Both the position numbers and the translations under genes were made by a program. DNA of 59,241 nucleotides, taken from positions 1-59,241 of IMG/VR virus record IMGVR_UViG_3300025098_000044, one strand, 5' to 3'. The DNA comes from a virus. The notes beneath the pieces were generated by a model that was given only the letters and a program-made list of their open reading frames with translations, did not search any database and had not been told where the DNA came from. Below, piece by piece: positions 50,554 to 56,858 of the stretch (its first letter is position 1; every line of letters starts with the position of its first letter).

Positions 50554-52476
50554 TTACTTTGTATACCTCTCCATAATCACGGTGTCCGAATCAAGTGGGA
50601 TATCGCACCATGTCGGAGGGGTAGTCATTATTCTTTTTATGTCTTTTTTGGCTTGGTGAAGTTTTTCATTTTCAACTTCAACAACAACCTCGTCGTGAAC
50701 AGTCATGACGATTTTGTAACCAAGCCTATCAATTTCAATCATGTGCTCCGAAAACAGATTCCGAGCGTTTGCTTGAACTTCATTTTGAAATAAGTTAGCC
50801 CCGTAATAGTTACTCCTACGGCCTCCGCCTTTTTGTAGCTTCGCTTTAGTCTGATCTTTTTCCTCGCGGATGTTCCAGAAATTAATCAAGCGACCATTCA
50901 TCAACTCAATTTGCATATCGTCACCATCATTTCGTGACTTATACTCCGAATCGTACTCACGCCATTTTTTGACAATTTTCGGGTTTTTATCACGGTAATC
51001 CATGACTTGAATAAATGCGTTTACCCAATGTTTTTTCGTAATAGAGTCGGCGGCATTAAACCATGCTAAATACTTTTTCTGATAAGAGTCTAAAAAGTTA
51101 GTAAATCTTTTCTTATCACCGAGGGCATACTCGCCTTCTAAGATTTTTAATTGCCCGAAAGATTGAACCGTCTCGTAAAATTTGTGCCAACCACAACCGT
51201 ATCCAAGTTGAAGGACACGGGTCTTAGCTAGCAAGTAGAGATCGGGGTCTTCATCTTTAAGTTTACCACCCGTCCACCCCATAGTATTTATAGCATGAGC
51301 CTCATACGGGTTGTAACCTTTGCGAACAAGATCAAGAGACTCAGTGTCGCCAACACACGCCCAAATTAAACGGGCTTCAATTTGACTAAGGTCACTTACA
51401 ATAAATGAATGACCATCGGGTGCTTTTATGCAGTTTCTGATATTAACACCGAACTTTGTGTCCCGTGGTAAATTCTGCATATTAAATCCACCAGCTCCAC
51501 TCCATCGGCCGGTGACTTCTGCACCGAAATACATTAAAGAGTAGGGCATCCTACCATGTATGTTGATACGGTCGTGCATCGTCTTTAAAGTCTTCAGATG
51601 CTTGTTGATGCGATTGTAGTTCTGCATATCCGCAACAAAATTTAATTTGTCTTTATACTTAGCCACCCACTTCTCCGTTTCCTTGTCTCCCTGGGCGAGG
51701 GACTTAGGTGGAGGGATACCTCTTTTGCGACATTCTAATGCCAAGGCTTTCTTGGAATATACTACATAAGGTTTTTTAGTGTCGGGGTCGATTTGATCGT
51801 ACCAAGGAAGATTTCTTTTAGCCTCCCATAAAGCCTTTTCCAGTTTATCAATTCCCGCCTCGACGGTGGGCTCGCATATTTTAACACCCTCCTCGCCCAT
51901 TCTTATTGTTAAATCTTCAAGCTCAAGTTCGATCTCGGGAATCTGTGGGTACAAATGTTCTAACAGTCTCCACTCGAGAACTGCATCTTGTTTCGCGTAA
52001 TTTACTACATCATCCCATTTACCTTCCGCTTTTATATCTTCGGGAGTCTTACCTTTCATGTAATCTCTTACTTCTTTTGACATGTCCTCATCAAATGCAC
52101 CCCGCATCGCATCTTGAAGACTACGACCAAGCTGCAAATAACAAGACATTGCGGAAGTATCGTGCCATCCTTTGATTTCGATATCGGGCATAAGACCCAT
52201 CTCGATTGCTTTAAGGGTGACGGGATAATCGAATCCTCTATTATGGGCTACGGCAATCCTACCTTCGAGCCTACCCCAATCAAACTCTCGGGGGTCACCC
52301 GCCCAAGATTCGTCTTTCCCGCCACCCCAAGCTAATCCCACGAGATAAGGATGAAATCGTTCGTGCTTACAGTACTCCCAAGTAGTTGTACCTTTTATTG
52401 TACAGTCTTTGTCATAGTAGGTTTCCCAGTCTATGACGAAATAGTTATCTTTTAAAAATTGTCTTCTCGTGGTCAT
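50554..52476 (-). CDS. Family A DNA polymerase with 3'-5' exonuclease
   Basis: A 640-residue T7/Pol I-type enzyme. The exonuclease domain is intact: D16/E18 in VIDWETYY, AHNRGFD, and YAKQDA. Polymerase motif A is VSDLSQIEARL (~357), motif B AKTRVLQLGYGCGW (~412) and motif C TVHDEVVVEV (~592). The residue matching E. coli Phe762 is Leu, a state linked in viral family A polymerases with temperate lifestyle, which agrees with the integrase. The position matching Arg754 appears to be Tyr. No SD is visible before the ATG. Confidence 0.92.
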   Translation of the reverse strand: MTTRRQFLKDNYFVIDWETYYDKDCTIKGTTTWEYCKHERFHPYLVGLAWGGGKDESWAGDPREFDWGRLEGRIAVAHNRGFDYPVTLKAIEMGLMPDIEIKGWHDTSAMSCYLQLGRSLQDAMRGAFDEDMSKEVRDYMKGKTPEDIKAEGKWDDVVNYAKQDAVLEWRLLEHLYPQIPEIELELEDLTIRMGEEGVKICEPTVEAGIDKLEKALWEAKRNLPWYDQIDPDTKKPYVVYSKKALALECRKRGIPPPKSLAQGDKETEKWVAKYKDKLNFVADMQNYNRINKHLKTLKTMHDRINIHGRMPYSLMYFGAEVTGRWSGAGGFNMQNLPRDTKFGVNIRNCIKAPDGHSFIVSDLSQIEARLIWACVGDTESLDLVRKGYNPYEAHAINTMGWTGGKLKDEDPDLYLLAKTRVLQLGYGCGWHKFYETVQSFGQLKILEGEYALGDKKRFTNFLDSYQKKYLAWFNAADSITKKHWVNAFIQVMDYRDKNPKIVKKWREYDSEYKSRNDGDDMQIELMNGRLINFWNIREEKDQTKAKLQKGGGRRSNYYGANLFQNEVQANARNLFSEHMIEIDRLGYKIVMTVHDEVVVEVENEKLHQAKKDIKRIMTTPPTWCDIPLDSDTVIMERYTK

Positions 52477-52487
52477 TTTTATTAGGG

Positions 52488-52534
52488 GAAAAAGGCGGGG
52501 CGCTGGAGAGAAAGGAAAAAACCCCCAGCGCCCC
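52488..52534 (-). terminator. Leftward hairpin terminator upstream of DNA polymerase
   Basis: A perfect 10-bp GC-rich stem (GGGGCGCTGG at 52497-52506 with CCAGCGCCCC at 52525-52534). On the reverse strand it is followed by GCC and TTTTT. It lies between the preceding leftward gene and the polymerase, so it probably acts as an attenuator separating their expression. Confidence 0.8.
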
Positions 52535-52567
52535 TATGGTATAACTAATATTACAATTCTAGTGGAA

Positions 52568-53233
52568 CTACATGAATTCCCCTAAAAATGTTTGAAACTC
52601 CTCGGAGTTAGCTCCGGATCGCTTCAAAGTGTTCACCCAATATGAACCTTTTGATCCGTCCACTTTCTTAGGCTCCATAGTGAAACTTCCACCACGGATA
52701 TTGTTTTTAAGAAAGGTACTATCAGCGGTCACAATAGGTTTCGCGGCTGTTGCGTAACTTGTACCTTTAATTCTCCAAGCGCAGAACATGAAGTTGTTAC
52801 CTTCAAATTCATATGGGAACTGTTGTGGGTCTGCATTTTCAGGCCCATGCACACAGATCATAGTGTCCATAAGTGCGTTGGCCGATGGTCGTTGGTTGTC
52901 TACCCACTTGAGGCTAAGACCAGCTTCTAATAACTCTTCTTCAGTATCAAAGAATCGAGATGTTTCGTCAGCCCCAAAAGGGATGTACTCCACATACGAT
53001 TTCTTATAACTCATCACGGTTACAATCGCCGGCTTATCTATCTCGAACTCGTTATCAACCACAAGTTTACCCTTTTGCCAATCACCCCATGCTCCTGCCC
53101 CTTGGGCTAGTCGAAGCTCGGGCATAATTATATCGGAGGCTTGGAAGTCCCCTTGTGCATAAGAGCCGGTTGCGATAGCAACTTCATTCGTTTCTGTTTC
53201 TGTTTCTTTTGGTTTTTCTGCTGTTTTTGGCAT
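52568..53233 (-). CDS. Hypothetical replication-associated protein, possibly ssDNA-binding
   Basis: A 221-residue protein with a Lys/Glu/Thr-rich N-terminal tail (~20 residues) followed by a beta-rich domain beginning SDIIMPELRLAQGAGAWGDW. The C-terminus is acidic-aromatic (EEFQTFLGEFM), as often seen in phage ssDNA-binding proteins. The gene lies between the exonuclease and polymerase genes, where such proteins are commonly encoded. I do not recognise the family with confidence. A ssDNA-binding or recombination cofactor role is inferred from position and tail. Confidence 0.5.
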   Translation of the reverse strand: MPKTAEKPKETETETNEVAIATGSYAQGDFQASDIIMPELRLAQGAGAWGDWQKGKLVVDNEFEIDKPAIVTVMSYKKSYVEYIPFGADETSRFFDTEEELLEAGLSLKWVDNQRPSANALMDTMICVHGPENADPQQFPYEFEGNNFMFCAWRIKGTSYATAAKPIVTADSTFLKNNIRGGSFTMEPKKVDGSKGSYWVNTLKRSGANSEEFQTFLGEFM

Positions 53234-53337
53234 AACTTAGTTGGTTTTTAGGTTTGTTTGTTTCAGTAGCGTATAAAAAAATTATACACTCTAGTTAAAA
53301 CTTAATATGCGTTGAAAGTCGCGGGGTGTGACAAATT

Positions 53338-54186
53338 TCATGATTTTGTTTTTGTTAAGTAAGGTGTTCTTGAGTCTTGCTCATCATCATCGCTGGCAAT
53401 GACTCCACTCTTTAATAAGGCTAATTCAATTTTGGCTCGGGCATCTTTCTTCTCACCCCGTGGAAGTTTAGATGCGTAGGCTTTCGATAAAGCGGGTAGG
53501 GTGACCTTACACGCTTTGACAAATTCCTCCGGTGCTAGAAGTTGCTCCAAGGCATCAAACGCGTCCTGTGCATCATTGATCTTTGCCGCTGGTGATCGGT
53601 ATCTAAGATCGAAACCTGGAATATCATACCCCTCATCGGTGGCTAGCTCTAGAGCCCTAGCATTTACGGCTGAAGTCCAACGGTCGAGCACCATAGACAC
53701 AATCTTCATCTGTCCGATGGTCGCAGGATCGTCGATAAGTGCGGGATCCATCTTATCTAAAAGAGAAATCTCAAACTCATCAACCTTGTCGGCGTACTTC
53801 TTAGCGATTGGCAAGAGCTTATCAGATAGGGCGGGGCAGGTAATCCTTTCCCCACAAAATCTACAAGCCTCGGTATCGGGGTTCAACTGCTTCTTATCAG
53901 AAATTGCTCTCTCGATAATAAGTCTAATCCGAGCAACCTTTTCCAAAACCTCTTCCCGTGTAAAAATGTGGGATAATACTTCGTTACGCCTTGGGCATAC
54001 AAAATATATCTCCACAGTCTCCACCCACTCGTATCTTTGCAGGAGTCCGATAGCATAGGCCAATGACTGCGGGTTAATGTCCGCAGGCTCGATAGCCCCG
54101 TATCCAAACTTATAGTCAACTAACTTAGCTAACTTAAGCTGCTTGAATAGTATTATTTCGTCTGCTGTCCCGAATATTGAACGCAT
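53338..54186 (-). CDS. Cas4/RecB-like (DUF2800-type) exonuclease, C-terminal fragment
   Basis: A 282-residue polypeptide carrying the catalytic half of a PD-(D/E)XK exonuclease: GTADEII (D9), LVDYKFGYG (D24, K26), Q40 in NPQSLAYAIG. It also has a three-cysteine cluster C108-x2-C111-x5-C117, the usual C-terminal part of a [4Fe-4S] site in Cas4/AddB-like nucleases. The matching N-terminal part is a separate cistron at 54337-54603 in the same frame, separated by 153 nt with three in-frame stops. End-processing for recombination is the expected role. No SD is visible before ATG 54186. Confidence 0.75.
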   Translation of the reverse strand: MRSIFGTADEIILFKQLKLAKLVDYKFGYGAIEPADINPQSLAYAIGLLQRYEWVETVEIYFVCPRRNEVLSHIFTREEVLEKVARIRLIIERAISDKKQLNPDTEACRFCGERITCPALSDKLLPIAKKYADKVDEFEISLLDKMDPALIDDPATIGQMKIVSMVLDRWTSAVNARALELATDEGYDIPGFDLRYRSPAAKINDAQDAFDALEQLLAPEEFVKACKVTLPALSKAYASKLPRGEKKDARAKIELALLKSGVIASDDDEQDSRTPYLTKTKS

Positions 54187-54340
54187 TGCAAAAATTTAAG
54201 AATTGGGCGTCGCAAGTGAACTCGGCAAGTTGGTACAGCATTCCGTCTGCGCCTTTAACTTTGTAAACTCCGTCGTGTTGTTGAACATATTTAACAGGCA
54301 CTTGTTTGCGCCTCATAGTGGTAGTAAGAGTATGGGTCAT
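54134..54340 (-). CDS. Small ORF between exonuclease fragments
   Basis: A 68-residue protein starting in an ATGA overlap with the N-terminal exonuclease cistron and ending 52 nt inside the C-terminal cistron, in another frame. It has a basic N-terminus and a central beta-hairpin-like DGVYKVKGADGMLYQLAEFT. No family is recognised. The coupled start makes translation likely. It may be an inserted gene or a bridge that keeps ribosomes moving between the two exonuclease parts. Confidence 0.5.
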   Translation of the reverse strand: MTHTLTTTMRRKQVPVKYVQQHDGVYKVKGADGMLYQLAEFTCDAQFLNFCNAFNIRDSRRNNTIQAA

Positions 54341-54603
54341 GTTATATCTATGGTTAGCTTTGTTTCTTTAATGACCTCATCCGCACCCTCTCGTAATGGG
54401 CGCACTACATCTAAGACTTTATTAACAAGAGCTATCTGATCTTCTGTAAGACCTTCAAAGTTCTCAGTCTCGGTAGCATGGTGAAGAAGTGTGCCTTCCT
54501 CAGCCGCTGGATTAGTCTCCCCCGAATTCCTAAAGCCTGGACAAATTTCCAGATGCTTTAAAGTACTCGGGCCAAATTTGTGGTGATCAATCGGACTTGC
54601 CAT
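54337..54603 (-). CDS. Cas4/RecB-like exonuclease, N-terminal fragment
   Basis: An 88-residue polypeptide matching the start of DUF2800-type nucleases: FGPSTLKHLEICPGF with the single N-terminal cysteine (C21) expected to be the first iron-sulfur ligand, then AAEEGTLLHHATE and a long helix. It ends at VIKETKLTIDIT, where the intact family continues into the GTAD strand found at the start of the 53338-54186 cistron. The first 17 nt overlap the upstream gene. It probably pairs with the C-terminal fragment, or both are remnants of a broken gene. Confidence 0.65.
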   Translation of the reverse strand: MASPIDHHKFGPSTLKHLEICPGFRNSGETNPAAEEGTLLHHATETENFEGLTEDQIALVNKVLDVVRPLREGADEVIKETKLTIDIT

Positions 54604-54910
54604 CCGATAACTCTGCGACCTTAGTCGATAACGCGGCTATGTTAATCTTAAGATAAGCCAACTCCATTACAAAAGGAGTCAGTATTGCCGCTAATTGATC
54701 AATGTCCTCACCTTTAGTCTCCAAATCTTTAACTGCCCTATCCGCGCCATCTTGAAGAGACTGAGAAAGGTGCGCGGCATTAATGCTCACTAACTCTTTC
54801 ATGTCTTCGGGTAGGTCTTCGACATTCTTTAAAGAAAGCAAAAGGTTAGTTTCAGAGGCTTCCGGCTCTTCGGGTTTTTCGGGACTTTCGTCGTCAATTT
54901 TATATCTCAT
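54587..54910 (-). CDS. Hypothetical acidic helical protein
   Basis: A 107-residue protein with an acidic Pro/Glu-rich N-terminal third and a predominantly helical remainder (LAAILTPFVMELAYLKINIA). No family is recognised. It leads the exonuclease group and overlaps its first cistron, so co-expression is likely. A TTGACA hexamer at 55030-55035 lies upstream on the reverse strand but has no convincing -10. Confidence 0.5.
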   Translation of the reverse strand: MRYKIDDESPEKPEEPEASETNLLLSLKNVEDLPEDMKELVSINAAHLSQSLQDGADRAVKDLETKGEDIDQLAAILTPFVMELAYLKINIAALSTKVAELSDGKSD

Positions 54911-55061
54911 ATTTTATGTGGGTTTATTTGTTACTTAGAGCCTAGGTGGCTTGGTTAATTTCCCCTCTCGAGGCCAAGGCTTATCCACCTCCTGCTTGGA
55001 AAGTCTACCTTGCATGTATTTTTTTACTTTGTCAAACAAAATATAAAATTGTTTTACAATG

Positions 55062-56411
55062 TTATACAAAAATTGGATTAAGTTCGTCATCGTTTATTAA
55101 ATCTAAATGGTTAAGTTTCTTTTTAACGGCTGCACAGACACGCATCTCAATGCTTCCGGCTGCAAATATTATTTTCTGAATGGCGGGACTCTTGGAGCCT
55201 GCTCTGTGAATTCTACCCAAGGTCTGTCTAAGCTCAATCGCACTGAAACCTGGACTTATTAATGAGACTCTTGGATGATTGCCATGAGTGTCATGTAAGC
55301 TGATACCAACACCGCCCGCTTGAATCATACAAATAATAATCCTAGCCTCGTCCCGCTGAAATCTGTTTATATGCACTTCCCTTACATCGTCCGCCTGACC
55401 ACCCTCTATTATGGAAACCATACAAAGGTCGCTGATACGCTGGGCGATGGCCTCAAGAGTGGCTTTGAAATTTACAAATATAGCAACACTACTTCCCTCA
55501 GCATAAGCATCATGAGCCAGCTCTACAAAAGTTGGTACCTTCATTAGCTCAATCTGCTGACGAGCCCTTAGCTGAACGGTTAATGGATTCTCATCCTCAT
55601 CCTGATCAACCTTTTCCTGTAAAGCCTCAAGCTCTGCCGCCATGTTGTGGTAAATAGAATCTATATCCTCATCCAAACTATAACCATCGGGGATAATTAA
55701 ATTTTCGGGAAAAGTCCCCTTGGGCAAATCCGCAATCCGGATACGGGAACCATACCCCTCATAGATATGTTTATGAAATCTCTTTAGCACCGGCTTAGGG
55801 TTTCGGAACTCTAGGGAGAAGCGGCCTTTCTTACACCCATTTTTCTGACACCAGTTCCACCAGTCCTTACCGCTATGCATGTCGAGGGCATAACCCATCG
55901 CCCGCATCTCCAACGGATTTGAGCAACTAGTGGCTCCGAGTAGGAGTATCCGAAACCCTAAGGCTTTGGCACTAATGAGTATCTTAGAATTTAGAGACTT
56001 ATGCCCTTTCATCCTATGATCCTCATCAAAAATAATTAACATCTTATCGGGATCCAATGTCTTCCACCGAAAGAATCCACGCTTGGGTATCCAACCCCAA
56101 TCAGTCTTACCACCACGCAACTTCTCATAATTAATTACATAGTTTATATTCTGATTAAAATTTAACATCCATTCCTGCCACGCGGGAATAACACTCTTCG
56201 GGCAAACAACAAAAGGTTCAAGCCCAAGTCGCCTCGCAACTTCCATCGCAATCACAGTCTTCCCGGTCCCGGTATCACTACCATCCTTAGCCACACCATG
56301 TGCCTTAATACTTTGAGTAAGATTATCGCAATGATCCTTCTGCCAATCGTAAAGCTCAGGAACAAGCTTGTTCTTAGTACTCTGCCTAATCATACCTTCT
56401 ATAGTGCTCAA
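55062..56411 (-). CDS. SNF2-like superfamily 2 DNA helicase/ATPase
   Basis: A 449-residue SF2 helicase. Motif I is SDTGTGKT (residues 45-52), motif II LIIFDEDH (~132-139), motif III LLLGATSC, and the C-terminal lobe ends with motif VI QTLGRIHRAG (~394). A DEDH rather than DEAH Walker B is normal for SNF2-like phage enzymes. The start is TTG 56411, supported by GAGGAG eight bases upstream and a TTGA overlap with the sigma4-like gene. It probably remodels replication or recombination intermediates. Confidence 0.8.
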   Translation of the reverse strand: MSTIEGMIRQSTKNKLVPELYDWQKDHCDNLTQSIKAHGVAKDGSDTGTGKTVIAMEVARRLGLEPFVVCPKSVIPAWQEWMLNFNQNINYVINYEKLRGGKTDWGWIPKRGFFRWKTLDPDKMLIIFDEDHRMKGHKSLNSKILISAKALGFRILLLGATSCSNPLEMRAMGYALDMHSGKDWWNWCQKNGCKKGRFSLEFRNPKPVLKRFHKHIYEGYGSRIRIADLPKGTFPENLIIPDGYSLDEDIDSIYHNMAAELEALQEKVDQDEDENPLTVQLRARQQIELMKVPTFVELAHDAYAEGSSVAIFVNFKATLEAIAQRISDLCMVSIIEGGQADDVREVHINRFQRDEARIIICMIQAGGVGISLHDTHGNHPRVSLISPGFSAIELRQTLGRIHRAGSKSPAIQKIIFAAGSIEMRVCAAVKKKLNHLDLINDDELNPIFV

Positions 56412-56584
56412 TATTGAAACTCCTCTAAATCTATTTTGTCGTCTTTTGCTATCTTGTGCATCTTACACCTTAACTTTCTAATCGCTACTTCCTCGATCTG
56501 ACGAATCCGCTCACGACTAACACCAACAAAGTCAGCTATCTCCTGCAATGTATGAGGATTCCCCGGCTTAGCTTCCATTACCAT
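56408..56584 (-). CDS. Sigma-70 region 4-like protein
   Basis: From ATG 56584 this encodes 58 residues dominated by a region 4 HTH: HTLQEIADFVGVSRERIRQI then EEVAIRKLR. The open frame extends to GTG 56842, but that N-terminal part overlaps the zinc-ribbon gene, is Ser/Lys low-complexity and has no SD, so the short start is preferred. There is no region 2, so it cannot be a full sigma factor. It may compete with or recruit host sigma at -35 elements, or act as an independent activator. Confidence 0.6.
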   Translation of the reverse strand: MVMEAKPGNPHTLQEIADFVGVSRERIRQIEEVAIRKLRCKMHKIAKDDKIDLEEFQY

Positions 56585-56600
56585 TTGTCTTAGCTTGATA

Positions 56601-56858
56601 TCAACCAGCGTTAACTTCTTCGCGGACTTCTGCTTCGAGTGAATGTTGATCGATTCCGAGGGCTTTTTCGAAGACTTGGGTCTTTTTTCTAAGCGTTTTG
56701 TTTTCGAGGATGAGGTTGTGGATGAAGTCTCCCTCGATTTCGCGGGTCGTGAACCGATGGCCGCAAGTAAAACAGCTACGGCGTCTTCTCCAACTAGCCC
56801 CAGGTCCTTGGCGAGAGTCTTTGACGGATGTTCTTTTCTCACACTTAGGACACTTCAT
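56601..56858 (-). CDS. NrdR-like zinc-ribbon protein
   Basis: An 85-residue protein whose first 40 residues match the NrdR zinc ribbon: C3/C6 in MKCPKC, VKDSRQG, RRRRSC (C29), TCGHRFTTRE (C32). NrdR normally continues with an ATP-cone and represses ribonucleotide reductase genes. Here a short coiled-coil-like tail replaces it, so this is a stand-alone DNA-binding ribbon. It overlaps the upstream coiled-coil gene by 14 nt and is followed 16 nt later by the sigma4-like start. Confidence 0.7.
   Translation of the reverse strand: MKCPKCEKRTSVKDSRQGPGASWRRRRSCFTCGHRFTTREIEGDFIHNLILENKTLRKKTQVFEKALGIDQHSLEAEVREEVNAG

Follow-up and report, generated by a model that had tools for sequence, protein, structure and literature searches.

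The region analyzed here lies in a virus record (IMG/VR record IMGVR_UViG_3300025098_000044), all 59,241 nucleotides of which we refer to as the window. All genes of the module under study are on the minus strand of the window. In the direction of transcription, their order is a SNF2-like helicase, an ORF of 107 amino acids, an N-terminal piece of an exonuclease (N), a small embedded gene (mid), a C-terminal piece of the exonuclease (C), a gene placed where other phages have the Gp2.5 ssDNA-binding protein, and a DNA polymerase of family A. This gene set matches that of the duf2800-gp2.5-polA module, which is known from many phages (PMC8093625), except that the exonuclease is split. The 107-aa ORF has no Pfam or PHROG family match. 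The coordinates of these genes and of the overlaps between them are collected in the table below. Related loci are cited by L numbers where they need to be told apart.

Table. Genes and overlaps of the split-exonuclease module in the window, listed in the direction of transcription.
Feature	Position	Strand	Evidence and remarks
SNF2-like helicase	55062..56411	-	Upstream of exonuclease; Pfam Helicase_C, E 1.7e-7; N-terminus STIEGMIRQSTKN
107-aa ORF	54587..54910	-	Between helicase and exonuclease; overlaps start of N
Exonuclease N piece, 88 aa	54337..54603	-	ORF; helix with C21 (EICPGFR), EEGTLLH motif (H41)
ATGA stop/start overlap of N and mid, 4 nt	54337..54340	-	Sequence
mid, embedded small gene, 68 aa	54134..54340	-	ORF; -1 frame relative to both exonuclease pieces
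Overlap of mid end and C start, 53 nt	54134..54186	-	Sequence; same overlap in L004
Exonuclease C piece, 282 aa	53338..54186	-	GTAD and VDYK (D/D/K), Q..Y motif, Cx2Cx5C triad CRFCGERITC
Gene in Gp2.5/DUF2815 ssDNA-binding protein position	52568..53233	-	Identity from position only; no family match
Family A DNA polymerase, module member	50554..52476	-	Pfam DNA_pol_A, E 6.5e-20

Two additional, overlapping ORFs (56408..56858, minus strand) were recognized by eye only. One resembles a short C4 zinc-ribbon protein (MKCPKCEKRTSVKDSR...). The other has a helix-turn-helix of the region-4 type (LQEIADFVGVSRERIRQIE) and resembles a sigma-factor-like DNA-binding protein.

The C piece is readily assigned to a family, matching both Pfam DUF2800 (PF10926; E 2.9e-19, profile positions 117-334 of 368, 69.9 bits against a cut-off of 21) and the PHROG 69 exonuclease (E 1.3e-22). 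The N piece alone has no Pfam match, and we assign it to the exonuclease because intact relatives carry stretches homologous to N and C as one ORF. A preliminary description of this DNA had suggested such a comparison with intact homologues, and the two stretches are indeed joined in L009, L020, L028, and L068. When N plus C are searched against PF10926, the score is 74.7 bits and the match still begins only at residue 88, while the single-ORF protein of L068 scores 103.1 bits over residues 48-328. The window enzyme shares with the DUF2800/PHROG 69 exonucleases its sequence family, the D/D/K residues, and four cysteines as in AddB and Cas4, and it is likewise located upstream of an SSB-position gene and a family A polymerase (PMC8093625). 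Known members, however, are encoded by one ORF, as are the enzymes of L009, L068, and Paenibacillus phage Pd_22F, whereas the window enzyme occupies two ORFs with a third gene between them.

Active-site and cysteine residues are retained throughout. Specifically, 54 of 54 alignment rows, split or unsplit and among them all 32 tripartite rows, agree in C21, the histidine of the EEGTxxH motif, both catalytic aspartates, the lysine, the QxxxY motif, and the C-terminal cysteine triad. An H...D...D-x-K active site with four cysteines, one followed by three, is the pattern expected of a RecB/Cas4-like PD-(D/E)XK Fe-S nuclease. The Fe-S nuclease domains of Cas4 and AddB have the same single N-terminal cysteine and C-terminal triad around the PD-(D/E)XK core, although in the window enzyme the Cx2Cx5C triad is on a separate chain. 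No match to a Cas4 family was obtained for the window protein.

These observations agree in part with the preliminary description, which had proposed an exonuclease split into two cistrons that divide its iron-sulfur ligands. C21 is indeed found on the N cistron, and the D/D/K residues and Cx2Cx5C triad on the C cistron, but the account of the N cistron was incomplete, as the conserved H41 is also located there. Recomputed coordinates and ORFs likewise confirm that N and C are in one frame, that they are 153 nt apart when the first stop codon is included, and that this frame is interrupted by three stops. The two-cistron picture itself is wrong because the 153-nt segment forms the body of a conserved third gene, mid. 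The division of probable cluster ligands between two chains stands by comparison, given the invariant residues, the constraint on both pieces, and the single-ORF relatives nested in the split clade, as described below.

The N piece ends in KLTIDIT, the first strand of an interrupted beta-hairpin. Since single-ORF relatives read through at the junction (for example, EEKLAIAGGLTFGTAD in L009 and EMRVKVVYREDGSSIFGTVD in L068), the break maps to the hairpin loop just before the GTxD motif. AlphaFold was used to model the window read-through from N to C as one chain, with an alignment of split and single-ORF relatives (mean pLDDT 69, pTM 0.48). The predicted strands 76-86 and 142-153 flank a linker of very low confidence (90-139), such that a normal nuclease core would form with the spacer looped out and disordered; a model of a single joined chain does not prove that separate chains meet. 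The top PDB hits obtained with Foldseek all belong to the RecB/Cas4-like nuclease kind, namely AdnAB, the Cas4-family protein ACE1, AddAB, RecE, Cas4, and MGME1, the best with an E value of 0.0046 and a probability of 1.00, and none below 0.001. A sequence-profile search of solved structures gave no relevant match.

An HMM scan of all forward frames recovers the N/mid/C order in 38 viral contigs, comprising this phage and at least 37 related ones. These represent 35 distinct DNA regions, and 32 distinct proteins were used in the tree. One contig is 99.97% identical to the window over 6.8 kb and has the same arrangement, while profile scans reach relatives with as little as ~45% identity in the C piece. 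Scans of sequenced bacterial genomes revealed no homologues. Of 32 distinct loci, all 32 have an open mid frame, compared to 0-3 for the other five frames, a contrast that is partly by construction because the mid frame was chosen by its HMM match. All mid matches fall between N and C, and a search of 12 contigs gave one match or none per contig. L022 and L026 look like two-piece loci that lack mid, either genuinely or through single-base frame errors, and were left out of the tripartite count. The preliminary description had raised the concern that the 153-nt segment might be an assembly artefact; this is excluded because independent contigs carry the same arrangement. The comparison therefore indicates that the split is real and evolutionarily conserved, and that it is neither an assembly error nor a plain division into two pieces.

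Estimates of selection point in the same direction. Over 14 pairs, and where dS was measurable, dN/dS is 0.03-0.20 for the N piece and 0.01-0.13 for the C piece, whereas mid evolves faster, with values of 0.1-0.5 in the pairs that allowed an estimate of dS; saturation affects several of the dS values. Between the window and L004, mid differs at 16, 7, and 22 sites in the first, second, and third codon positions, respectively, which fits coding in the mid frame. These ratios place both exonuclease pieces under strong purifying selection, and selection acts on all three ORFs.

The manner in which the three ORFs overlap is informative with regard to their translation. The frame relations of N, mid, and C are 0,-1,0 in the window lineage, 0,+1,+2 in most others, and 0,+1,0 in L056. 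In all 32 distinct loci, a start codon for mid is found close to the N stop codon, the overlap between the two ranging from -7 to +14 nt. The overlap between the end of mid and the start of C is usually 8-29 nt long, but reaches 53-59 nt in L004, L096, and the window. Of the 32 C starts, 20 have a Shine-Dalgarno-like match in front of them, compared to 24% at random positions (the rows are related), although the window C start has none; mid starts show no excess (8 of 32). Given the start-stop overlaps, and a Shine-Dalgarno-like excess at C only, we suggest that mid is translated by reinitiation and that C is initiated independently in many lineages. Because frame relations vary and a ribosome-binding site often belongs to the C piece itself, the arrangement is best read as three overlapping cistrons with separate initiation, and not as a case of read-through, frameshifting, or splicing.

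The embedded protein has no Pfam or PHROG match, and no convincing homologue was found in phage records, nor any paralogue elsewhere in phage contigs. Its family was aligned from 16 contigs, and across the clade it is 55-77 amino acids long, a size that, together with the lack of a Pfam or PHROG match, does not fit a homing endonuclease. AlphaFold predicts a small beta-barrel or beta-rich domain plus a helix (pLDDT 79, from 3 sequences), with low confidence in the last ~14 residues, which are overprinted by the C piece. Fold searches with mid gave nothing beyond insignificant matches, SH3/Tudor-like or other (E > 0.1), and so we assign no fold.

A possible link to the helicase comes from a short peptide, IEGxIRQSTxNP, which opens mid in many lineages, whereas the window and the L096 contig carry it at the start of the helicase instead. 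In the form (S/V)TIEGxIRQSTxN(P), it occurs in the window helicase, in L098, and in the mid proteins of L021, L023, L035, L036, L038, L044, L047, L050, L056, L059, L061, and L062. A pattern search found at most one copy per contig, and the helicases of L021 and L036, lineages where mid carries the peptide, are without it. The shared peptide may be a docking tag that has moved between proteins. Because the same N-terminal peptide stands on one or the other, this pattern hints at a partner that both mid and the helicase can serve.

With the junction omitted, a tree built from the concatenated N and C sequences places the 32 tripartite rows in one clade together with L068, L020, and L022. In both L068 and L020 the exonuclease is one ORF and mid is absent from their contigs, yet they are nested within the tripartite clade. 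Trees that hold them outside the tripartite rows are rejected, both for L068 (p-AU 0.013) and for L020 together with L022 (p-AU 0.0018). Because these single-ORF enzymes nest in the tripartite clade, the simplest reading would be one split followed by two re-fusions with loss of mid, assuming that the root is outside the clade. L020 is the weaker case for re-fusion, since a frame break near its C end means that its sequence may contain errors.

L020 also has a long loop (YSDGSEKMDKPSGLPPVPAHGM; L020:2737-2820) exactly at the position that mid occupies in its relatives. This loop is possibly a re-fusion scar.

A second clade (L078-L082, L091-L093, and L095) presents a similar situation. Here helicase and exonuclease share one ORF, and the split, seen in 7 tree rows, is ~16 residues upstream of the site used in the window. 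It is caused by one to three quite different small ORFs, one of which encodes a 109-aa coiled-coil protein. The sisters of this clade (L083-L090 and L094) are unsplit helicase-exonuclease fusions. Because the second clade has its own split and other small ORFs, fission by small-gene insertion has occurred at least twice in this enzyme.

How might the products of such a locus function? The conserved arrangement and residues, the selection on three ORFs, the varied frames, and the nested single-ORF relatives are established by sequence comparison, and on this basis we consider it probable that the locus encodes a DUF2800 (RecB/Cas4-like) nuclease with its gene in pieces: one ancestral split produced three cistrons, the chains reassemble, and mid is an accessory subunit. 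Under this model, a small gene would have inserted once, in the ancestor of a large phage clade, into the beta-hairpin loop before the GTxD motif of a PD-(D/E)XK exonuclease, yielding three cistrons that overlap and are each initiated separately. Reinitiation would be possible where the N stop overlaps the mid start, and C would start within mid or at its end, often from a ribosome-binding site that belongs to C. The two exonuclease chains would most likely assemble non-covalently into one nuclease, with C21 of the putative cluster supplied by N and the other three cysteines plus D/D/K supplied by C. That the break has been long kept and occasionally undone suggests that the pieces probably assemble into a working enzyme. 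The mid protein, made in step with both halves, would most likely be the accessory subunit, perhaps one that docks close to the interrupted hairpin or that connects the nuclease with other proteins of replication.

Several alternatives would make a joined or dead protein from the same DNA. Recoding, by two programmed frameshifts (N to mid to C) or by a ribosomal hop over mid, is an improbable route. A double shift is possible in principle, as N and C of the window are in one frame and each overlaps with mid, and as the shift from mid to C is +1 in nearly all loci. However, the different frame relations among lineages would need different signals, and therefore no single recoding signal explains a joined product; moreover, no canonical slippery heptamer was seen by eye at the junctions, each junction has a start codon, and many C starts follow a Shine-Dalgarno-like site. 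It is more improbable still that the insert is removed from RNA or protein as a small intron or intein. Clean removal of an insertion in a hairpin loop would indeed yield a normal nuclease, but the insert codes for a protein, its own reading frame is subject to purifying selection, and it is shorter than typical group I introns or inteins. In addition, there is no Pfam intein match, and no Rfam match in window positions 52500-55500 even at E up to 1 or in the second clade at the gathering threshold. That stop codons interrupt the reading frame might suggest the leftovers of a decaying pseudogene, an explanation to which we give very little credence given that all catalytic and cysteine residues are kept and that dN/dS is far below 1 in both pieces in many lineages. 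An assembly or sequencing artefact must be considered for metagenome-derived contigs; this has a negligible chance of being correct and is already refuted for the window, as 38 contigs, one of them nearly identical, share the arrangement, and possible frame errors are confined to L022 and L020.

The role of mid is less certain. Its conservation could have causes unrelated to the exonuclease, and the main rival to an accessory role is a variant of the reassembly model in which mid is an independent passenger, selfish or host-directed, in a tolerated site, with N and C reassembling without it. We regard this variant as a serious contender, while leaning against it. The faster evolution of mid, the quite different small ORFs at a nearby site in the other clade, and the single-ORF lineages that do without mid are all in its favor. 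Against it, mid was never found elsewhere in the 12 contigs searched, is kept in 38 contigs, and has an N-terminal peptide that in other lineages stands on the helicase of this operon. We also entertain, more tentatively and as a rather unlikely arrangement, an obligate heterotrimer in which mid fills or bridges the hairpin and couples assembly of the two-chain cluster to the replisome, a role it would have in common with the helicase tag. Overall, a role of mid as a subunit or tether is likely, though unproven.

Most of the split enzymes known from phages arose through homing endonucleases and are restricted to a few phages. Among the precedents for phage replication enzymes that work in pieces after gene insertion are T4 topoisomerase 39/60, the 43A/43B polymerase of Aeromonas phage 25, whose split halves co-purify with activity, and NrdA-a/NrdA-b of phage Aeh1, where insertion of mobE leaves a split NrdA that is fully active (PMC2988022). 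A start/stop overlap with the upstream gene is also reported for several such endonuclease genes, such as mobE after T4 nrdA (PMC2988022). As with Aeh1 NrdA, an inserted gene splits the window enzyme and unsplit relatives exist. In contrast, the insert of the Aeh1 type is a homing endonuclease found in one or few phages, whereas that of the window encodes a non-endonuclease of 55-77 amino acids, the split is kept in a wide clade, and mid is absent where the exonuclease is a single ORF. A literature search, which left out most subscription journals, yielded no relevant paper on a split DUF2800 or other split phage exonuclease.

The split described here is of interest because it places probable Fe-S cluster ligands and active-site residues on two chains and persists across a large clade. 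It also has a non-endonuclease gene embedded in it, was apparently reversed twice, and is resembled by the split in the second clade. These loci thus offer a natural set of split and unsplit enzymes with which to ask how an enzyme tolerates gene fission, why the divided state persists, and how two chains can build one metal cluster between them. In practical terms, annotation of such loci hides both the N-terminus of the enzyme and a new small protein family.

Finally, a DUF2800-like exonuclease at L013:2492-3575 (MW202496.1), which may be a real split or a sequencing error, is annotated as two overlapping CDSs with a frame change near the end of the nuclease core.
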